A stretch of 64,000 bases of DNA from Darksidea phi (taxonomy: Eukaryota > Ascomycota > Dothideomycetes > Pleosporales > Lentitheciaceae), in NCBI GenBank assembly GCA_030770425.1, contig JASJFT010000169.1, positions 1-64,000 on the forward strand, given 5' to 3'. The notes under the pieces were generated by a model that searched no databases, was not told where the DNA came from, and saw nothing but the letters and a program-made list of their open reading frames with translations. Made by a program: the position numbers and the translations under genes. The number at the start of each line of letters is the position of its first letter. Position 1 is the first letter of the stretch. This document shows positions 7,407 to 38,602 of the stretch, in pieces.

Positions 7407-10400
7407 CTAAGATTCGATGCAATCCCATTCATGGCCCTTGTGTAGGTGATTCAAAAACGAATTACACATAAAACAATAATCGAGGCCTGGACAAGTACGA
7501 CAACGAAAGCGTGTCCCGTAAATCCCCTTCTAACGTTAGTTCTACTAAATTATTTCGAGCTGGGTACTTACATGAAAGCATCCATCGCACAGTATACCTA
7601 TATGATGTATACCGCACTGTTGTGCGGTTTTGAGATAGTCTGAATCAGTCCGTACTTCTAGCAGTTTTCTATGTGATGCTGATATGTTTTCTAGCATCTT
7701 CTCTTTTCCATGGAAGAACGCGACGGAAATAGGACTCCATGGTCTTTCTGACCCGGGAAGGGTTATGCATTCACTGCGAAACCCCTCCTTGAGCAGTCTT
7801 TCCACAACATCGGGGTTCCCTGCCCTAAATGCCCAATGAAGGGGGGTCCAATGTCTGCTCTGAATCGACAATGTAGCAGCATCATCAAGGACTGCATTGA
7901 GGATCTTCAGCGAACCTCCCGAAGAAGCATAATGGAGCAGGCCGTCCCCTTTCTCATCCACCGTTTCACGATCGATGCCTCGACTGAAGACATATTCAAA
8001 AGTGTCGACATCTGCACTTCTTGCGGCAAGATGAAGAGCGGTTCTCCCATGACGGTCCATACGATGTTGATTACTTTTGCCAAGAAGCAGCTTCGTGATG
8101 TCCCTATGGCCGTTTCGTGATGCATGAGTCAGAAGTGTCGATCCGGCATTATCGCGGACATCTACGTCTGCACGCTTCTTAAGAAGCAGCTTGGCCACCC
8201 CCTCACGCCCTTTTTCTACCGCCCACAATAGCGGCGTCCGACCATAGATGTCCTTAGAGTCCACCTCGACATCGTCCCGCTCGACTAGTAGCTTGACTAC
8301 CGCCTCGTATCCATTTTCTGCCACCCCCGATAGCGGCGTCCTATTATACTTGTCCTTGGAGTCCGCCTCGACGTCGTCCCTCTCGACTAGTAGCTTGACT
8401 ACCGCTTCGTGCCCTCTTACTGCCGCCCAAAGTAGCGGCGTCCGACCGTCGTCATCCTTGGAGTCGGCCTCGACGTCGTCCCGCTCGACTAGTAGCTTGA
8501 CTACCGCCTCGTATCCAATTTCTGCCGCCGCCGATAGCGGCGTCCGACCGTCGTCGCCCTTGGAGTCCGCCTCGACATCGTCCCGCTCGACTAGTAGCTT
8601 GACTACCGCCTCGCGTCCATTCTGTGCCGCGTACGATAGCGGCGTCCGACCACAGAAGTCCTTGGAGTCGGCCTCGACGTCGTCCCGCTCGACTAGTAGC
8701 TTGACTACCGCCTCGCGCCCTGTTCCTGCCGCGAACGATAGCGGCGTCGTATCATGCCTGTCCTTGGAGTCCGCCTCGACATCGTCCCGCTCGACTAGTA
8801 GCTTGACTACCGCCTCGTGCCCTGCTCCTGCCGCCCGCGATAGCGGCGTCCGACCGTCGTCGTCCTTGGAGTCCGCCTCGACATCGTCCCGCTCGACTAG
8901 TAGCTTGACTACCGCCTCGTGCCCTCTTTGTGCCGCGTACGATAGCGGCGTCATACCATACTTGTCGTCTTTGGAGTCCGCCTCGATGTCGTCCCGCTCG
9001 ACTAGTAGCTTGACTACCGCCTCGTGGCCATATCCTGCTGCCCACAATAGCGGCGTCCGACCGTCGTCGTCCTTGGAGTCCGCCTCGACGTCGTCCCGCT
9101 CGACTAGTAGCTTGACTACCGCCTCGTGTCCATTTTCTGCTGCCCACGATAGCGGCGTCCGACCGTTGTCGTCCTTGGAGTCGGCAAGTGCTACTTTTTC
9201 TTCCACAATTCGAGAAAGAAGCTCCTCAGATAGATGCAGCAGCCCTAACGAGGCAGCTAAATGCAGACCGGTCGCTTGCTTTGGAAAATACCGACTATAA
9301 CCCTCGGATTTATAGCTTTCGCTAGATATCCAGCTGGTTTGAACAGCACAGTCGACCAAATGATCCTCCTGAAGCAGACGTAACGCTAGTTCAGACACCT
9401 TCTCTTGAACATTGGCTGCATGTTGTCCCCAGTACCGAGCAGAGTAGTCTAGGAATATGTTCTGCTCAAGCCTGCTCTCGAACTCCGCGTCACTCGGACA
9501 GCTACCGCTCCTAAACGTCTTGAAGCAGAGGTACGTAAGACACGTGGACGCAATATCGTACGGAGCACTAGGGTTCCACTTCTCTCGGATCTCCTCTAAG
9601 TATTCTTGTGTAGTATAGTGGACGAGACGGATAACCTTACTTTCTTCGTCCACTGTAACAAGGCCAGCGCACACAGACACGATATCTTCGATACTAGGGA
9701 TATTATCCGGGTCAAGTTCCTCTTCTTCCAGCTCCACTGCCAAGGCATGGCAGAGCTCCCCAGTAGTTAGCGGCCTCTGAGCATACGAGATCCAGGATAG
9801 AGCGCTTTTTGCTCGCACCGCCCTCCCACGTAGTTGACTGTCTATTCTCTCGATCGCTCCATCATATGCTTCTTTGAGCGCTTCAGTGCCTCCAGAAAGG
9901 TTCTGCAGCGTGGTCTTTACACTCTTTTTCGTATCCTTATCGAGTAGCGAATCCACATGCAGGCGAGCAAGAAGAAACCTAGTAGCCTTGTAAGCTAATT
10001 GTTCGTGAGAGGGGTGTGCAAGAAACTCACATGCCATCTACTGCTTGCACGATCTTGCTCTGGACGAGTTCCTGAAGATTCTTATCGCGTTGCACGCACC
10101 CCGCCAGCCGTTCTGTTTGGCCAGCTACAAATCGTTTCACGTCCGCGTTGCTTGCGCGCACTTCCAACCGAGGTATGCCTTTGAACTTATCTACTATGTC
10201 AGAAATATGTCGTGACGTAGCCATTAAACGCAGGTCTGTTTGTCCTTGCAAACTGCGACAGAGTCTTAGGAGCTGGCTCCGAGTACCATCTTGGTCCGAA
10301 CACTCATCTAGAGCGTCTATAACAACGTACACCCTCGAGTAGTTCGTGAGCACAGACTTCAAAGCATTAAGTGTTTCCTCAACCGACGGTCTCGTTCTTC

Positions 10401-11344
10401 GAACTTCGTGGTGGTCGTACAGACTCGATAAAGGCTCCGCGATCGATGGTCGGTCCTGCACCAGCTGTTTAAGCATCGCCGCAAGCAGGCTGGAAGTGGT
10501 CTGATCCGCCTGCCTTTTGTAGCTGCAATACAGGTACGCAACTCCCACGTCAGGAGTTTGCACGGCCTTCTGGAGATGATCGACCGTAATCGCTGCCATC
10601 ATCGTCTTACCGGCTCCAGGAATACCGGGACAGAACAGCGTCTGGCTTGCACCACTGACCCATTCGGTGAACTCGTTGGAGCTGAGAAACCACAGGCCGG
10701 TCTCTTCTTGCCTGCGGGCAATAAAGTCGGACTGCTGAGCCGGAAAGTCGGCCGAAGATAGCCAGTTCATGATTCGGTGGTGTTTTCGACGATCTTGGTC
10801 TTGCTGTAAAGCGTCCACTCCTACCTTCAGGACCTTGTTGTCGTTGTGCATAGACGTCATACGGCTCTCGATCGCTTGTGACAGTTTACTGCAAGTGTGA
10901 GCGACGCAGCCTTTCCGTGTCTAGAAAGGATACAGACAAGTGGTCCATTTCCAGCGCAATCTGCACCAACGACTTTAGCCGCTCTATCCTCAACAGGATG
11001 CGTTCAGCATCGTCTTTGATATACTTCCACAAGAGGGTCTTCGCCATATTCTTTAGTCCGTGTCCATTCGAGATCTTGTCCTTCAGCTGCTCCAGCGCAA
11101 CTCGGTACTGGTAAACCAGCCCGTCTTTTCCGCCCAGCTCTCGGACCTTTGCATGCCATGGATCATCGGAGCTCTCGTCAACACGGGACAACAGAGTGAC
11201 AAGGAGATGCGAGAGATTCGACGTTTCGGTCGTGAACAGGCTGCCCTCTGTCGAGGCGTCCTTCGCATCGCGCAGGCACTCACCGACCTTCGCCGTCAGT
11301 TGCAATACAGCGATAATGCTGGCCGTGATGCTGAGCGGGTCCAT
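7407..11344 (-). CDS. NACHT-ankyrin STAND (NLR-like) protein with C-terminal ZZ zinc finger
   Basis: Four exons: 11344-10938, 10888-10031, 9978-7572 and 7529-7407, giving 1,264 aa with consistent phases. The start is the ATG of MDPLSITASI, the typical opening of fungal STAND proteins with a helical PigL_N/HeLo-like N-terminal domain (residues about 1-140). NACHT NTPase follows, with Walker A GIPGAGKT (about 224-231) and Walker B VVIDALDEC (about 324-332), then a winged-helix region. Next come ten near-identical ankyrin repeats (about 690-1000) and more divergent ones. After a 42-nt intron (GTAAGT..TTAG), exon 4 completes a ZZ finger: CDGC, then CRTC, C..C and two histidines. Such proteins act as intracellular sensors in allorecognition or anti-microbial response; the ligand is unknown. 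It is intact, unlike its neighbours. Confidence 0.85.
8240..9180 (-). repeat. 102-bp tandem array encoding ten ankyrin repeats
   Basis: Ten units spaced 102 bp apart (one is 105 bp, with an extra codon at about 8,968) code for 34-residue ankyrin repeats carrying the core HEAVVKLLVERDD. Units differ mainly at a few codons around the TPL..AA tip, while the rest is nearly identical at DNA level. This pattern suggests recent duplication or gene conversion and repeat-number variation, as known for fungal STAND repeat domains. Confidence 0.9.
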
Positions 11345-14899: not shown

Positions 14900-17800
14900 T
14901 TAACTCAAAGTCAACCGAAATTCGACAAAAGTGGCACTCACCTCTCCCAAAATATCCACCACACCATCCTGTCTTATCCAAAACTTCTCCCACGCTTCCG
15001 ACCACTTGACCTCCTTCAACTCCTTGATCCAGTTTGCCACAGTTTGTTCAGCCTCCCCAATCATCATCGTCCCATCTCTGACCCCCTTCCAGCCATCTAC
15101 AGGGCCCTTGATATACTTGTGATCTCGGCCGCAATACGTTTTCCAATATAACCATTTATCAGTCCGAGAGTATTGGCGAATCTTCCCGTAGCATCCTTGA
15201 CAGAGCTGTGTATCCGCGCACAGAATGCAGAGGTAGAGTGACCCATTGGCCCAGTCAACGTAGCGGGAGTTCTGCATATGTTCGCCGCTGCACGGAACTT
15301 TAGCTCCAGAGAGGTCTCCCCAGGTGTCGTCTTTTATCATTTCGCAGTCATCGCTGTCGCTGTCGCTCTCCGCTATGGCTGCAGCCTCGGTGCCTTTCTG
15401 CTCACCTTCCAGTGGGGTATCATCTTCATCATCTGATGAATCAGAGCTTTCGTAGGGATCTGCCTTCAACATCACCGCCGGATCAAGGGTAGAGTACTGC
15501 AACGAAAAGGCAATCTGAGCTTCTCTTTCAAGGCCACCGACCAGGGCCAAAACCTTTGCCAACAACCGGAGGCAGATGGTATCATTCCAGCCCTCGGCAT
15601 CCGTCAACGCGGCAATACAGAACTCGAAGGTATCATTCAGGACCTCCTGGAATGTCGTGGTAGAGCCCATTTTCCGAAGCATGCTCGCGTAGATGGTTGT
15701 TGTCAGATACTCGAATGCTTCTATTATCCGAGCATTTTTGAGTCGTTGGTCTTGTAACCGGCTCATTTCTTCCATGAAGCCTACCTTTTCGAGAGGGCTG
15801 GCGGTTGAGCGGAACTGTTCGTAGAGAATATCTGCTAGCGTGTTTCGAGCTAAAGATACGAGCTCCTCCTCTTCCATGATACCATATTCATCTCGTCTAC
15901 CGTGGATATCTAAGATCTATCCATATAGTCAGCAAACAGTAATTTGATGGCTGAGACCCATTCGTCTAGATATAAGTTTCGGACTTGAGAACTGAAAATA
16001 ACGCTTTTAAATCACATACATCGTAAAGCAGCCGTTTGGCCCTCTCCAGATCTGGTGAGACATTGATATGAAACTCAGCCAGGTTATATCTCATCTTCCG
16101 AGAGCCAAGCATGTTTCTCTGGTCCATGAAACGAATAATCTCCTCATACGCCTTGGTAACAAACTCGTCATTTTTAGCCAAATGACCGGCTCTGCCAAAT
16201 GTGGTGTTGGGATCTTCTGCGAGCGGGCCCGGGCCTTCCTCTCTGTATTCTTGATTGAGCCATGCCATCAATTCAAGAACGTTCCACTGGCGAAGGTTTT
16301 CGATCAGCTCTTGATATTTGTTTTGTTCCACGGCGAGAATACTGGGAAGTATCATAAGGCTGCCGCCGTCCAGTAGCTCATCTGGTTGCATTAATCGTGC
16401 TCTCACGAATGATGCCACGGCTTTTTCGAACAGACCTAGCTTCATCTCGCAAAATGATTGATTCATCAGTGATTCCTGGACCAGTTTGACAAGAGCTTCA
16501 TCGTTTGTTGGAGGATTTGTAGATGTGGTGGCTAGCAGCAAGTCGCACGACCTTTCAAAGTCTTCGAAGTAGTTTTCGTCATCCTCAGTATCCCCGCCAT
16601 CACCTTCATCCTGCCACTCGTCGTCCTGTGTAGGGTGGGATTCCTGGGCCTGATCCGGTCTGACTTTTCCCCAGGTGAGGACGATAGAAGTTTGGATCAT
16701 CAAATCCGAAATTTTCAAACGGGTCTTCACTTTGTCGACTTCGTTTTCCGCCAGGTTCAAGCTCTGGTAATAGTAATCTATGGCCGGTATATTGTGGTCA
16801 TTTTCGGCCAATAGATTTGCGATAGCTCTCAAGGCAGTGGAATCCAGATGGATGTCACCAAAAATCGACGCAACTGCTTTAATGAACTCGGGAGCATCGC
16901 TTCCTCCACCAAAGGAGTATTCCGCTGGCGCTAGATCCGTCTGCATTGATTCGTCAGCATTTTTTGATCGAACTCCCGTGGTCCTCTATTATGATGACAC
17001 TTTGAGGAAGGACGATTCCTTCAAGATAAGGGTACAGCCTGACTGTGACTTACGAGGTCCAAAAGTTCGACTGCAAAATCGTAAGACTTGCTCTCATCTT
17101 TCGAGTCCTCCAACCAGTTCACAATATGGCCTTTCACCAGCGGAGCCATCAACTTGAGTGGCTCATGCATCGATTTGCCAATCCACTGTTGTGTGGCTTC
17201 ATCAACTGCGTCGGGAGAAATTGCCGACGCACGTTTCATCCAGAGCATTAATGAATCCATGAACTCCTTTCCCTCGCGCTTTGTGATGCCCAAACTCCCG
17301 ATGTAGAAAAATGTACCACCGTCAGTTTCGCTATGGGCCTCAATGAATTTGGCAGCATCGTTGCAGTTAGTCAATATGCATCTCATCAGCTGAATGATTG
17401 ATGCAACTTCTTGATCAGAAGTCTTCTGCAAGTCGATCTCTTGAAAGTGTTTTCCCCAGTATGTTGCGGCGTATCTGTTTAGTGCGGAACCGCCGTCTCT
17501 CGCCAACTGTGGATCAAGCGAGCAAATCAACTTGATTGAGAACTCAAAGACCATGATGTGGCAACGATTAGTGGGAATCCGCAGGTTTGGCGATTCGGTG
17601 CTATTTGTACGCAAATAGTCCCTCAACGGCCGATTTAACACTTTTACGAGCGAAGCATCCCCGTCGTAAGGTTGGAATACCTCAAGGCCGCTGGCATCAG
17701 GTATTGTCTCGTTTTCACTTGCGGGTGTATCTTGTTCGCCATCTTCGTTGACTCCGGCGGCTCCGACAATGTCCAAAAAGGCACCGGATCGAGTCAAGAC

Positions 17801-19806
17801 TTCTTCGGCAATGCTAAACGCTTGATCGTGGCCACAAGCCTTCGCTACTCCATTGATTTCTCCCACCACCAGTGGGCGGTGCGAGAATCTCAGCCAGGCA
17901 TACACGTTCTGGAGAGCAAATAGCTGTGCTTCCGTTCTCCTGCTTTGGATATCTGTTTCTGTAGATTCCAGTAGACTCGTGAGGCTTGATGGCGCATTTC
18001 TTAACTCTTCCAGAATTGTTTTCTCGTCCTGTCTTTTGTTGAGACGCCTGAGCATATGCTCTACGTACAACATGCAGTCGGCCTTCTGAAGCAGGGTCGA
18101 CCTGATAATCCTCTTCATCGGCATTCGGGCTTTGTGAAGACGCGAAAACGTGTGGAGTCGTGCATCAATAACCATGCGCATATCATTCAGTAACGATTCC
18201 TTTGTCAACGTTATTGTTGAGAATTTCTGATCCAAGACTCCCAGATATGATTTCCAGCTTGGTCGGCTTAGTATCATGACGCGAATCGACAGTTTTAGCT
18301 CAACAATTTCCTTCAGCATGCGTTGCAGGCTTTGGTTAAACTGCCTCTCGATATGTACCGTTTCATTGATCTCGTCCGGTCCATCCAGAACGAGGTAAAG
18401 ACGGGCCTTAGAGTCGGCGGAGAATTTTGACATGATCAATTTCTTCCAGAAATAACGGGCCCGCTTTCCCAGAGAGAATGTGGGCCCGACACGGGCCATT
18501 TCTGTTGCAACTTCGTTACAGTAAGCGGAGTCACGAGACGTAACCTCGGTGACGATTGATTTCATAGCGCTGGCCAAGGGATCCATTTCTTTGAAGCCTT
18601 CTCTCCAGTAAAAATGTCCGACAAAGGTTTTCGATTCACTGGCGGTGGATCTCGCAAGATCTTTCGTGGCAGAGTACGCGAGACATGACTTTCCGGCTCC
18701 AGGGTCTCCAGTGATCCAGAGCAGCGGGCTCGTCGACGATCCTTCTCTCCATGAGACGTATTCTTCCCGTTGGAACATCCAGGAAGCTGTTCCCTCAACA
18801 AAGGAGTACCCAATCTCGCGATCTACGATACCCGGATCATCTTCGGTGAAAAGCGCTGCCTTGACAGTGGACAGAGTTGACTGCCTACTTTCCCCAACTT
18901 CTGCCTGTTGCGCATCTGCTGCAAACTCTTTCTTCACTCTGGTTTGCGCAAGCATGAACGAATCGAAGTTTGCCAACATCTTCTGGTTGAGTTCATATAG
19001 CACCGAAACTTTATCGCTGACATCTTGATGGCCTTCTTTCAGATCCGAGGCGGCTTGCTTGATCTGATTGGTATTGTCGAGATTCGCATATCCAACAGCA
19101 AGATTCGCGAAATTCGTGGCAGATTCCAGACGGGCAAAGGCTGTCACCAAGCCCGAATATGCACCTGCTAGCTCATCGTCACCCCCGCCTCGTAGAATCG
19201 TCTTTCCAAATCTCTTAAGTCTACCTTCTCTCGTGGCCTTGGTAGCGAGACCAAGGATTTTCATGATTACAGTGAACACTTTCATCAAGTGCAGTCTGTA
19301 ACCTGTAAACTTGGGTACGGTTTTCTCAATCATGCTAACTCGTTGCAAGAATTCGTTCAGCTCCTCGAAAAAAGTTTGTATCTTGTCGTAGTCTTTCGAC
19401 ACGCTCTCGGAGGCTTTCATAACCCAAGTCAGCGCCGTGAGAATGGCCGAGCTAGGCGGAAAGGCCGCAGATGCTGAATTTGCAAGAAACTCTGCTCCCT
19501 TGAGAATGTATTCGCAATTCTCAACGATGAGATGTCTCATCTTCGCCACCTTTTCCCCAGCGAGGGTTCCTCCATAATCTCTCCACTATTCCGACACGTC
19601 AGAAAATGTGGTGTAATGTAAAGCAGGCGATTAAATACCTTTTGGAAGTTGTTTTGGATGTCTCTGTCTTCCAATATCTCATTCACGCTTTTGAATCGTT
19701 TGAGATCTGTGGGATTCATCTTGATGGTGTTGTAGTACTGTATGCTAGCCTCCTCCCACATGAGTGCCAGATCAGTAACATCTTCTTCCTCCAGTTTCCT
19801 CTCCAT
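14900..19806 (-). CDS. Goodbye-NACHT-TPR STAND (NLR-like) protein
   Basis: Four phase-0 exons: 19806-19639, 19585-17054, 16985-16020 and 15916-14900, about 1,560 aa. Introns are 53, 68 and 103 nt. The N-terminus (W.EAS.QYYNTI, then MRHLIVENCEYILKGAEF) matches the fungal 'Goodbye' helical domain of STAND proteins. The P-loop GDPGAGKS lies at about residues 349-356, with LVLDGPDE as the Walker B region. TPR-like helices occupy exon 3. The C-terminal part has an acidic Ser/Asp stretch and a Cys-rich module (C..C....C..C, later C...H, then GPVDGWKG) that looks zinc-binding. A predicted donor (GTGAGT at 14,940) suggests a short last exon beyond the written stop, so the C-terminus is uncertain. It likely acts as a cytoplasmic surveillance or incompatibility protein; the ligand is unknown. 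Confidence 0.8.
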
Positions 19807-23975: not shown

Positions 23976-26225
23976 TTACACCAAGATAATCGTCTCCCAC
24001 ACTGGATTTGCCCTGTCCCAGAGCCTCGCTTCAATATACCCTATACCCAACCTCTCACTCACGCCCTTGCGCTGCTGCACCATCATGACAATCAAGAGCC
24101 ACGGAGTCTTATCATGATCTTCCAGATTGAAAATCTGTGCGACGTGTAAGTCCCTTCGTTTACTTTTGGGGAGTATTCCTGCGCATAGAACGATGAATAT
24201 CTGCTCTTGTTTCAGATTCACCTTCGCATCCATCCATGCACGATCGATCTGTATGTTGCCTATTTTGCCTTGGAACGGCGAACAAATGTCTAGTGATATG
24301 GTATCGGGGTCTTCGTTGGACGCAGCATTAGGACGGAGAGAGAGTACTGCGGTCGTTGTGTTGAAGACCAAGCTCCCAGGGTATTTCATAGCGGTCTGAC
24401 ATGCTAATTGACTGAGAGTCAGGTGATTTCTTGCTTCCCATGGGTTGTGTGGGCATTTACGCCAGACCTCTTCTGTAATCTTGGGATCGGGGATGTATCT
24501 ATGTCTCGTCTCCTCTAGGATCTCGTGGCTGAAATTGATGTGCTGTCCGAACCAGCCATCATCTGCATTCAACCGACGTAGACTTCGGTCCAGGTTTTGA
24601 ATATGAAAAGCGACCAGCGTACCAATATCTGTCGCCATGACATCCATAGAGAAGGGACCCTCGTAATTTATTGCGCCAGACCAGCCCGCCCAGCTCCAAC
24701 TGGGGATTTCTACCGCGTCTTTCCTTCGCATGGTTGGATGAGCGATGCTATGCCACAACAAGGCCGTTGTAAAGTATTTCTCAGGCAAGCAGAACAAAAA
24801 GGAAGTACGCATTTCAGCAGCGAGAACATTGCTCACTCCGGTAAATGCTCTCTCGATGTCAGACTCGTAGGACAGTATACGAGCAGTGTAATTACGAACG
24901 TAATCTAAGTACGAATGTTCGGTAATTAGATCGTGTACGCTGGGCACACCGAGGTGTCCTGGTGGGCCGATGTTGTACCTATTCTTTCTCGAAAACTCTC
25001 CTACTTCTTCCTGAACCAAGGCTTGCGGACAGGTAAAGTACGTCTGATAGTTGGTTATGTAGATACACCGCGTTGAGAGGACTCGCTCCTGGAAAGTCCA
25101 GCCACGTGTGTTCCAGGCCGACTTATCGACAGTGACAAAGAAGTTCAAGTCAATGTTGCAGCCTTCGTAATGATATAAACGCGTTTCGTTCTCCAAAAAA
25201 GATGCTCTTGGTCGGCCGCGAACGCCCGGTAGGCCGATAGCTTTGGCTGTGTCAACAGCTGCCACGAGAGTAAAAGCCGCAATTCTGTAGATAGTATCCA
25301 TGGCACTGATCTGTACCCCTTTAATGACCGGATCATCCTGTACAATACCGAGTCTATCGATCCAAAGCCATTTTTCGCCCAGTTCTCTGCAAAGAATGAT
25401 TGCGTCGAATATCAGCTCCGGTACCTGATGGAGCTCAAGTCTACCAGGCTGTGATAGTTGGCCGACATTCGATTGCATCAATTGTAAGTCTTTGCCGCTT
25501 CCATGTACAGTCCACATATAACTGAATGCCACGAAACGCTGGGATTCAGAAGCATCGACAATACACAGCTCGTCGATATTGATCAGTTTGAAATGTGCTG
25601 GTAGGCCTTTGGTGATGCTCTTTTGACATTCGCTCCCATGCTGAGACTCGCAATTTGAGATCCACCTCTTCATTTCCTTTATATCAAAATATCTTTCATC
25701 CCAGACATTTGCCTTTGCTAGTCGGATGGGATTTCCATCATATTCAAGCAGAAGCTGTAAGCCCAACGTTGGCGCGGACCACCAGCGCCATGTCCGCTTC
25801 TTGAGACCTGTTTGGGGAGCCTCCCTTTGATTATAGATATCTAGATAAAGAACGCATTTAATGCATTTGGGTGGGACCTTCAATCGTTCAGAAGCCGTAG
25901 TAAACTTCATTGTTGTCGTCCCCGCCTGCATCTCCTGTCGAAACACTTCGAAGGCGGTTCCCACATGGATTTGAACATCTCTTGAATCCGTCATTGGCCA
26001 ACTGAGACATTTAACCTTAGCTTGTACCGCAGAAGAGATAACCCGACATATCATACATCCATGTTGTTGAAGCATGCTTTCGAGAGAGGTGGTCCTGACG
26101 GGTTGAGCCTGCATATAGGCGAAGACATCTTGAGTATTGTTCCAATATTGGCAGTCATTGCAGAGTCGACCATTCTTCCGGGGGGCGATCCGCAGGTCGG
26201 ACAGCCGTGAAGTTTGGCTACCCAT
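23976..26225 (-). CDS. HET-domain protein (heterokaryon incompatibility family)
   Basis: A single uninterrupted exon of 749 aa. The ATG at 26,225 (MGSQTSRLSD) is chosen because the more upstream in-frame start is not ATG. The N-terminus has Cys pairs (LCNDC; later CMIC). The HET core starts at FVAFSYMW and runs through the DAI.LCRELG helix, WLWIDRLGIVQDD, the M..IY..A..TLVAA strand and TRGWTFQERVLS. The later EIPSWSWAGWSG is the usual 'P.WSW....G' block. HET proteins trigger cell death when incompatible partners meet. Oddities: the usual SLCI.QDD cysteine is Gly here, and Trp-Gly of 'SY.WG' is Trp-Thr. It is the only intact HET gene in the window. Confidence 0.88.
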   Translation of the reverse strand: MGSQTSRLSDLRIAPRKNGRLCNDCQYWNNTQDVFAYMQAQPVRTTSLESMLQQHGCMICRVISSAVQAKVKCLSWPMTDSRDVQIHVGTAFEVFRQEMQAGTTTMKFTTASERLKVPPKCIKCVLYLDIYNQREAPQTGLKKRTWRWWSAPTLGLQLLLEYDGNPIRLAKANVWDERYFDIKEMKRWISNCESQHGSECQKSITKGLPAHFKLINIDELCIVDASESQRFVAFSYMWTVHGSGKDLQLMQSNVGQLSQPGRLELHQVPELIFDAIILCRELGEKWLWIDRLGIVQDDPVIKGVQISAMDTIYRIAAFTLVAAVDTAKAIGLPGVRGRPRASFLENETRLYHYEGCNIDLNFFVTVDKSAWNTRGWTFQERVLSTRCIYITNYQTYFTCPQALVQEEVGEFSRKNRYNIGPPGHLGVPSVHDLITEHSYLDYVRNYTARILSYESDIERAFTGVSNVLAAEMRTSFLFCLPEKYFTTALLWHSIAHPTMRRKDAVEIPSWSWAGWSGAINYEGPFSMDVMATDIGTLVAFHIQNLDRSLRRLNADDGWFGQHINFSHEILEETRHRYIPDPKITEEVWRKCPHNPWEARNHLTLSQLACQTAMKYPGSLVFNTTTAVLSLRPNAASNEDPDTISLDICSPFQGKIGNIQIDRAWMDAKVNLKQEQIFIVLCAGILPKSKRRDLHVAQIFNLEDHDKTPWLLIVMMVQQRKGVSERLGIGYIEARLWDRANPVWETIILV

Positions 26226-27589
26226 AATCAGGCTGGGTAGCCTCACTTTGTCTACAAAAGACAGCACAGCAAACAGGCGGTCAAAGCGATGAGCTTGGCG
26301 AACCTTTAAGGTAGAAGAGTCACCTGATAATGAGTGCTTGGTTGAGATAATGAGCTTTCTGGGGTATCGGTTTGGAAGGATCGTTGCGAAATCTTGGAAG
26401 GTGACGACTAATTTGCGCTAGCCCCAACGCAGGTAGGTTTTCGCTCAAAGGGCTGGTGACAAACACCTTTGTGGTGCAAGATGTAATGCGTTTAATCCAA
26501 GAGAATGCAGTTTTGCAAATAGGGATGAGCGAGAAACCTTTCGCGCACACCGCGCCATACGTATGTATAGACTCACTGTCTGTACCCTAGAGAAACTCGA
26601 AAGCGCCCCAACTAAAGCGGAGGTCGCAAGCCCCCGCACCCAATGCCCCGCCACAGCCCAACATTGCGCAATACTTCCTCGCAATCTGAGCAAATCATAG
26701 ACTGCTTAGACCCTGCAGCTTTATATAACTGGGGAGGCCGCAGGTATGCATTCAATGTCGCTAGAGGGATGCGTACGGCGAGGCGTGGCGAGGCGTCGCG
26801 CGACAAGGTAGGGCTGGTTAGCAGCGAGGCGGCACGGCGCCCGCCAGGAACAATGACCTCCAAAAGCCGACCCAAGAGTAATCAGACTTGCAACGACGAC
26901 GGCTCGAGGACTTGTGGCTCATATATGCGGCCAAACAGTGCTCAATAGTAGATCAAAGACCACACCTGGTTTAAGAGCGTAGACAACTAAGTGATAGGTG
27001 CTTAGAAAAGACACGTCTTTGATGGCATATATATGCTGTTGGGGATAGCGCCAAGCTCTCAGTGGCTCGGACTTCACCTTGCACATCAGTGGTGCTCGCC
27101 TTGCGCCTCCTATTCAAACCCTAAGTTTCTTATGGGAGAAGGTGCATCACAGAGGAGAAACGAACTGTTAGCTTAAGTGAGGACGTCGATGGGAAGTGGG
27201 TAAATGCGGGCGGGGGATATGTTTGGTTCATGATGAAGTAGGAGTCTAAAGAGGTGATTTATGGTCTAGACGTGTAATAGATGGTAGCAATTGGAGGTAA
27301 AGACGACATGGAGATGTAGTGTTTGGTATTGGTATTCATGTTCATTCATGTTCATACATAGAGCGCCCTAGGGTTTCCGCGCCTCGTAGATCCTTGTGTC
27401 CGATCCCGCGGCCCTGGTGCTCAATCCTCCTGAGCGAGTGTCTGGGGTATATTCTGCGCTCGTTCCTTGGTATGCTTCCCAGCTAGTGGTACATGCGCTC
27501 AGGGTGTCCATCGGACTCTTCAAATGTACCATACAGCCGATTTGCCATCGAAGCCGTGATCGTTATTCAGTCACTCCATCTTTCATTCT
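26226..27589. other. Intergenic, no supported gene
   Basis: This contains the presumed HET-gene promoter. Bases 26,770-26,800 carry a short GC-rich imperfect repeat (GCGAGGCGT). A 101-codon frame at 26,643-26,948 (+) has low-complexity Arg/Ala/Ser content and no motif. Nothing else is evident. Confidence 0.4.
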
Positions 27590-38475: not shown

Positions 38476-38480
38476 AAAAA
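38476..38480 (-). terminator. Pol III oligo-T terminator of tRNA-Val
   Basis: TTTTT on the minus strand begins at the base right after the discriminator A of the tRNA gene. Confidence 0.8.
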
Positions 38481-38602
38481 TAGTCCCGCCGGGGATCGAA
38501 CCCGGGACCTGCCGCGTGTGAGGCGGACGTCATCTGTTGCATGTTAGAGAGATACTTTTGACGAGCAAGGTGGCAGAACTTACACCACTAGACCACAGGA
38601 CT
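38481..38602 (-). tRNA. tRNA-Val (anticodon CAC) with a 50-nt insert in the D-loop
   Basis: Removing bases 38,583-38,534 leaves 72 nt that fold as a normal tRNA. The 5' AGTCCTG pairs with 3' CGGGACT (one T-G wobble), followed by discriminator A. The D-arm has A14, G18-G19 and A21, the anticodon loop is CTCACAC (anticodon CAC, valine GUG), and the T-arm is CCGGG-TTCGATC-CCCGG. Pair 27-43 is a T/C mismatch. The A box (TGGTCTAGTGG) and B box (GGTTCGATCCC) are intact. Five Ts follow the 3' end directly, a Pol III terminator. The usual tRNA intron site after base 37 is uninterrupted. With the insert left in, no canonical D-arm forms. Confidence 0.85.
38534..38583 (-). other. Spliceosomal-type intron-like insert inside tRNA-Val
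   Basis: The 50-nt insert starts with GTAAGT, has CTAAC with its branch A ten bases before the end, and ends in CAACAG. Its length and signals match the mRNA introns of this window (42-68 nt in most genes). It lies between bases 20 and 21 of the tRNA, just after the A box. Canonical nuclear tRNA introns lie at 37/38 and lack these signals. Confidence 0.75.

Follow-up and report, generated by a model that had tools for sequence, protein, structure and literature searches.

Candidate U2-type spliceosomal introns in nuclear tRNA genes of the ascomycete Darksidea phi

A nuclear tRNA-Val(CAC) gene of Darksidea phi is split in its D-loop by a 50-nt segment, and the best explanation on the sequence evidence is that a U2-type spliceosomal intron was gained by the gene; in all we found 14 introns of this kind, in 12 tRNA genes of this genome. 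It is likely that these are functional tRNA genes with U2-type introns, which would be transcribed by RNA polymerase III (Pol III) and spliced by the spliceosome. In the proposed pathway, Pol III would transcribe the whole gene from its internal promoter, and the spliceosome would then excise the intron from this precursor, a step known from fission yeast U6; end processing, together with removal of the intron at position 37/38 by tRNA endonuclease where such an intron is present, would then complete the tRNA.

The tRNA-Val(CAC) locus

The gene occupies positions 38602-38481 of the window, i.e. of the whole 64,000-nt stretch of contig JASJFT010000169.1 that was analysed (contig C78 below). It lies on the minus strand; the initial annotation had stated no strand, and the letters of the minus strand match its description. 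The 5' exon (38584..38602; 19 nt, bases 1-20, delimited from the letters and the R2 alignment described below) holds the 5' strands of the acceptor stem and the D-stem and the start of the D-loop, and within it lies an intact box A, TGGTCTAGTGG (38585..38595). The intron of spliceosomal type (38534..38583, 50 nt) interrupts the D-loop at position 20/21. On the minus strand, from 38583 to 38534, it reads GTAAGT...CTAACATGCAACAG, with GTAAGT at 38583-38578, a branch-point-like CTAAC (38543..38547) 9 nt ahead of the 3' end, and a terminal CAG at 38536-38534. The 3' exon (38481..38533; 53 nt, bases 21-73) supplies the 3' strand of the D-stem, the anticodon arm (CAC), the T-arm and the 3' strand of the acceptor stem; it contains an intact box B, GGTTCGATCCC (38492..38502). 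A run of five Ts (38476..38480), resembling a Pol III terminator, stands directly 3' of base 73. All of these features are on the minus strand. Box A, box B and the T-run had been described as intact, and the consensus matches of both boxes and the letters of the run agree with that description.

The proposal that removal of 50 nt between bases 20 and 21 restores a 72-nt tRNA-Val(CAC) is upheld by two readings of the locus. ARAGORN names tRNA-Val(CAC) in the insert-free sequence, and a covariance model (R2), made from 15 further nuclear tRNAs of this genome with Val and Gln left out, aligns with 38602-38481 from end to end (54.9 bits, E 1.2e-15), with the insert placed in the D-loop. The fold alone locates the boundary only within a few bases, because D-loop length varies; the GT..AG register gives back the loop AGTGGTA, as in the Ala(AGC) genes of this genome. 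The stems hold a single non-standard pair, T27-C43, pair 13-22 being left out of the check.

With the insert retained, default ARAGORN reports no tRNA at the locus, and the only Rfam match at E 1 is to tmRNA, over 18 nt of the T-arm. On these results we rejected the alternative raised at the outset, a tRNA fold in which the 50 nt are retained. When introns are permitted, ARAGORN reads the unspliced locus as Ala(TGC) with a 47-nt intron; this reading was rejected as a poorer fold with an A-C mismatch in the anticodon stem.

Elsewhere in the window, two large ORFs (7545-10860 and 17021-19549) have, by eye, the look of NACHT/ankyrin-type NLR genes, and the ORF at 23976-26267 appears HET-like, likewise by eye. 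A class I mannosidase of the window has pleosporalean fungi as its best hits among NCBI-named proteins (Kalmusia 65%, Bimuria 65% and Clohesyomyces 64% identity), two further proteins being closer at 77% and 74%; these hits point to a pleosporalean genome.

Census of interrupted tRNA genes

The genome searched comprises 51.35 Mb in 477 contigs. An Rfam tRNA search gave at least 54 matches, a lower bound because 63 of 1,735 candidates were scored. Among these matches, 18 were judged mitochondrial by their tRNA content (contigs C304, C417 and C382) and four doubtful ones were set aside (C51, C119, C187 and C425), with a nuclear remainder of at least 32. In two of the nuclear genes, Gln(TTG) on C149 and Ala(AGC) on C79, a GT..CTAAC..AG insert breaks up the T-arm. 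Two box-B patterns, both blind to introns, gave 30 and 15 places, and by reading, 28 of these 45 places (18 and 10) are nuclear tRNA genes, 11 of them interrupted (8 and 3). The two routes united recovered 45 confident nuclear tRNA genes, 12 of which are interrupted, by 14 introns in all; spliceosomal-type introns are present in about a quarter of the recovered tRNA genes. Outside the 45 stand the 18 mitochondrial and the four doubtful matches and 17 other pattern places, which comprise one mitochondrial place, one of the doubtful matches, repeats, and non-tRNA places including a lone T-arm on C90.

A CTAAC upstream of an incomplete tRNA drew attention to Leu(TAG) and Leu(AAG); the other split genes were recognised by their tRNA halves. 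The pattern CTAAYN{3,20}AGGTTCGA occurs at 60 places, against 53 in a backward control; three of the 60 are the known Ala gene and two Glu genes, and no tRNA was seen in the 10 that were read among the other 57. Two scans of viral contigs found nothing.

The doubtful matches and several pattern places have features of their own. A Thr(TGT)-like sequence (C51:47971-48038) and a Cys(GCA)-like sequence (C119:9624-9693), so named by eye, have T-arms that look shortened by a few bases and may be decaying copies or odd tRNAs. Two sequences that look Ser(GGA)-like by eye (C187:3187-3278 and C425:82584-82677) have similar flanks and CCA after both, and may represent the head part of a tRNA-derived repeat. 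SINE-like sequences about 200 nt long, similar to one another, lie on C22, C390, C405 and C103 and end in a tRNA-like T-arm; the end of the C103 copy resembles the 3' end of tRNA-Ile. The lone T-arm-like hairpin on C90, GTGGGTTCGACTCCCAC, lies near 191804; some 250 nt were read upstream of it and showed no 5' half of a tRNA.

Positions and splice signals of the introns

The 14 introns, positioned by hand from the spliced sequences, occupy twelve different positions, and none is at 37/38. Proceeding from the 5' end of the tRNA, Leu(TAG) on C190 is interrupted at 9/10 and Leu(AAG) on C34 at 15/16, in the D-loop; Arg(TCT) on C432 has introns at 19/20 and 24/25, on either side of the 20/21 position of Val(CAC) on C78. 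Ile(AAT) on C177 follows with 25/26 and Lys(TTT) on C436 with 28/29. Leu(CAA), on the reverse strand of C85, has one intron at 34/35, inside the anticodon between its bases 1 and 2, and another at 49/50. The remaining introns are those of Glu(TTC) on C445 at 51/52, of Ala(AGC) on C79 and the two Glu(CTC) genes on C440 and C335, all at 52/53, and of Gln(TTG) on C149 at 53/54. An ordinary 37/38 intron is also present in nine of the 12 interrupted genes (it is absent from Val, Lys and Ile): ARAGORN places it at 37-39 in seven genes, and in Gln and Ala it was taken from the anticodon-loop insert of the Rfam alignment and by hand. Leu(CAA) combines two spliceosomal-type introns and a 28-nt ordinary intron within one gene.

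The introns are 47-57 nt long. Thirteen have GT-AG ends and one, that of Leu(AAG), has GC-AG ends; a YTRAY motif lies 8-11 nt upstream of the 3' end in every one of the 14, and a G precedes the intron in 11. When the boundaries are slid so that the spliced product stays unchanged, exactly one GT/GC..AG register exists for each intron (14/14). Of 399,489 random segments of the window with matching lengths, 83 (2.1e-4) satisfy the splice-signal criteria when a slide of ±2 nt is allowed, the criteria having been chosen after the introns had been seen. As for U2-type introns in particular, the extended 5' splice-site consensus was found (in Val, GTAAGT..CAG), as was the branch-point motif near the 3' splice site in all 14. 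This uniform GT/GC..YTRAY..AG anatomy would fit removal by the spliceosome. An assembly error as the cause of the inserts was rejected because the same arrangement is seen at loci on 12 contigs. The suggestion of the initial annotation that the Val gene holds an intron-type insert is strongly supported, because 13 similar introns sit in 11 other tRNA genes.

For comparison, 19 putative mRNA introns that join long open frames were collected, against 2 in a reversed-sequence control. They are 44-80 nt long with CTRAY 6-18 nt from the end, and their likeness to the tRNA inserts is no independent match, because these very signals, with a length range of 44-81 nt, were used to choose the set. What the set shows is that such segments apparently serve as mRNA introns of this genome. 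TTTT is present in none of the 14 tRNA introns and in 3 of the 19 inferred mRNA introns, a difference that is not significant; with a sample this small, avoidance of TTTT cannot be claimed.

The same signals bear on the alternative that these are ectopic tRNA introns cut by tRNA endonuclease at bulge-helix-bulge motifs, as in Cyanidioschyzon merolae and archaea, with the GT-AG ends and the branch motif being coincidental. PMC3978253 does describe ectopic introns in the D-loop, at the anticodon and in the T-loop, and the presence of ordinary 37/38 introns in nine of the 12 genes would likewise suit this explanation. It is nevertheless hardly credible in view of the GT or GC, AG and YTRAY at 8-11 nt in all 14 introns. 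Letters 2-5 of the intron are, by inspection, TAAG in 7 of the 14 irrespective of the 3' exon, so that these letters cannot all pair with it. A bulge-helix-bulge with a 4-bp central helix was found at none of the 14 junctions in strict register and at one (Lys) when both bulges could shift by 1 nt, both counts coming from a scorer run without a positive control.

Origin of the introns

Introner-like elements are families of similar copies in protein genes, and whether the Val insert belongs to an introner family had been put forward as a point to check. Such an origin is not supported by the sequences: a genome search with the Val insert found its own locus and no second copy, and in an all-against-all comparison of the 14 introns the best local score was 19 (shuffle median 18, 95% point 23), i.e. 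the introns are no more alike than shuffles. Target-site duplications were rejected as well, because the shared ends measure at most 2 nt. According to passages of PMC4457414, introner-like elements account for spliceosomal introns gained in numbers in Dothideomycetes; the word 'tRNA' does not occur in the main text of that paper. The introns found here are alike to these elements in being of spliceosomal type and in belonging to the same fungal class, but introner-like elements form families of similar copies, whereas the 14 tRNA introns are not alike and the genome search with the Val insert found no other copy.

Promoters, terminators and folds

Box B can be read in the unspliced DNA of all 12 interrupted genes, in 10 by the consensus test and in two Leu genes by the box-B pattern. 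Box A is exact in nine of the 12; Glu(TTC) has no exact match, and the introns of Leu(TAG) and Leu(AAG) interrupt box A and leave a one-mismatch version in each. At the three 52/53 introns, the terminal AG and the following G recreate the GGTTCGA of box B. Four or more consecutive Ts occur within 60 nt downstream of every gene, and the run starts within 14 nt in 11 of the 12, figures given without a random control; in Leu(AAG) on C34 the first such run is 37 nt downstream. Boxes and T-runs of this kind are what Pol III genes able to accommodate the insert would be expected to have.

It has also to be considered that Pol II might make longer, mRNA-like transcripts, which would be spliced before the tRNA is cut out of them. 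The spliceosome usually acts on capped transcripts of Pol II, which speaks for such a route; on the other hand, the T-run behind each gene and the internal boxes A and B point to Pol III, and the Val gene is overlapped by no ORF of at least 70 aa, with short ORFs on both flanks. We regard the Pol II route as very improbable, and transcription by Pol III remains the preferred reading.

The spliced sequences have the attributes of nuclear tRNA genes, namely a cloverleaf, boxes A and B, and a T-run. ARAGORN names a tRNA in all 12 of them, although it takes Ala(AGC) for Arg(ACG) in a reading that spans the 37/38 intron of that gene. On the unspliced DNA, the intron-permitting ARAGORN reports some tRNA in five of the 12: Ala and Lys keep their isotype, the 50 nt of Lys being taken for its intron, whereas Val comes out as Ala, Leu(CAA) as Val and Leu(AAG) as Gly. 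Among the 11 distinct interrupted tRNAs, seven have no non-standard stem pair and four have one (pair 13-22 excluded): Val T27-C43, Lys A12-C23, Ile C50-T64 and Leu(CAA) a T-T in the anticodon stem. Of 15 uninterrupted tRNAs, 10 are without and five with a non-standard pair; among these five, Gly and His are alignment artefacts and Asp is probably an artefact in part. In Ile(AAT) on C177, two base changes relative to the intact paralogue together break a T-stem pair, and this copy may be decaying, because the intact paralogue is paired at 50-64.

Copy number and uninterrupted paralogues

A different explanation accepts a spliceosomal origin of the inserts and holds that the interrupted genes are dead or dying, the work being done by intact copies elsewhere. 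Uninterrupted paralogues do exist for four isoacceptors. Glu(CTC) on C198 matches the interrupted copy on C440 in 94 of 97 columns and that on C335 in 94 of 102; Leu(AAG) on C334 matches C34 in 96 of 99, and Ile(AAT) on C101 matches C177 in 72 of 74. Ala(AGC) on C429 matches C79 in 89 of 106 columns, with the differences in the 37/38 intron. Since such near-identical uninterrupted paralogues are found for four isoacceptors, some introns would have been gained (or lost) in genes that have barely changed, and we infer intron gain or loss from these presence/absence pairs. The introns of the two interrupted Glu(CTC) genes, on C440 and C335, occupy the same T-arm site and match in 27 of 51 columns; the exons are the same. 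Further points in favour of dead genes are the T-stem mismatch that the Ile copy has gained and the fact that the assembly may be incomplete and the tRNA search is incomplete.

The search for further copies weighs on the other side. A whole-genome DNA search with the 72-nt spliced Val tRNA returned only the two exons of its own locus, the interrupted copy thus being the sole Val(CAC) gene found. The same search with the spliced Lys(TTT), Gln(TTG) and Glu(TTC) tRNAs yielded the interrupted locus and no other close copy, with only the 5' 37 nt located in the case of Glu(TTC). That the search can detect close paralogues follows from a control with Glu(CTC), which recovered each of the three known loci, one of them intact and two interrupted.

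By the wobble rules, Lys AAA, Gln CAA and Glu GAA codons require tRNAs with the anticodons UUU, UUG and UUC. Splicing of the Lys, Gln and Glu(TTC) genes would therefore be essential, barring a divergent or unassembled copy, and these three isoacceptors weigh most clearly against dead genes because their sister isoacceptors cannot read the same codons. The Val gene alone is less compelling, because a Val(UAC) tRNA might decode GUG. The single-copy isoacceptors may also have intact copies that are divergent or unassembled, and such copies may be missing from our tRNA catalogue, because it is incomplete: genes for Phe, Tyr, Trp and Pro were not recovered.

The absence of non-standard stem pairs from seven of the 11 distinct interrupted tRNAs argues in the same direction as the copy number. 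So does the persistence of the genes, their box B and their T-runs, though the insertions do not look recent, because the introns share no sequence beyond what shuffles share. The initial annotation had left open whether the inserted element killed the Val gene. Its intron-type part stands, whereas death of the gene is unlikely as a general answer, because four isoacceptors were found only as interrupted copies; we prefer the reading of functional, spliced tRNA genes.

Comparison with known introns

Ordinary nuclear tRNA introns sit at 37/38 and are removed by tRNA endonuclease. Introns of this kind are present in this genome too, and the 14 introns differ from them in position and, on the preferred reading, in removal route. 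The earlier statement that nuclear tRNA introns sit at 37/38 proved too strict as a rule, since ectopic ones are known from the red alga Cyanidioschyzon merolae and the nucleomorph of Guillardia theta, as passages of PMC3978253 describe, though they belong to the bulge-helix-bulge field. Introns in the D-loop, anticodon stem and T-arm are reported there in addition to those at 37/38, with several per gene, and the same holds for the genes found here. In those passages of PMC3978253 they are treated as bulge-helix-bulge introns, many of the nucleomorph ones without a defined motif. In contrast, all 14 introns described here have GT/GC-AG ends and a branch-point motif.

In fission yeast U6, removal of a spliceosomal intron from a Pol III precursor is established. 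In 1989 Tani and Ohshima reportedly described an mRNA-type intron in Schizosaccharomyces pombe U6, and Canzler et al. are said to have found in 2016 that fungi gained U6 spliceosomal introns on several occasions. What U6 of S. pombe and other fungi would share with the genes found here is that a small gene transcribed by Pol III holds a short spliceosomal intron; the host of the U6 intron is an snRNA, whereas here many tRNA genes are interrupted, at many positions. U6 of D. phi itself gave one match of 100 nt (C179:23388-23487), which is uninterrupted and followed by a long T-run; its lack of an intron counts against the preferred reading.

Spliceosomal introns have also been reported in ascomycete rDNA. 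Fungal U3 snoRNA genes carry normal spliceosomal introns according to passages of PMC5832005, and thus likewise have them in a structured non-coding RNA; as presented in those passages, however, U3 introns are found almost only in one 5' stem-loop, whereas those of the tRNA genes span the D-arm, the anticodon arm and the T-arm. Our literature search, in which most subscription papers and all preprints were outside the scope, found no description of a spliceosomal intron in a nuclear tRNA gene, and for this reason novelty is not proven.

Conclusions

Spliceosomal introns of mRNAs and endonuclease-ligase introns of tRNAs are taught as separate worlds. On balance, the gene set described here makes it probable that in D. 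phi the spliceosome is an obligatory machine of tRNA maturation, with essential isoacceptors, the Lys UUU, Gln UUG, Glu UUC and Val CAC tRNAs, encoded only by intron-bearing Pol III genes. On that reading, some genes would add a 37/38 intron, Leu CAA would have to lose an intron from within its anticodon, and mRNAs and tRNAs would share a splicing step. In genomes of this kind, essential tRNA genes would then be liable to escape the standard tRNA finders. If our interpretation is true, short uncapped Pol III transcripts would be routine substrates of the spliceosome, protein synthesis would be tied to spliceosome function, and the tRNA genes of this fungus, whose exact products are known base by base, would serve as a natural archive of intron gain.
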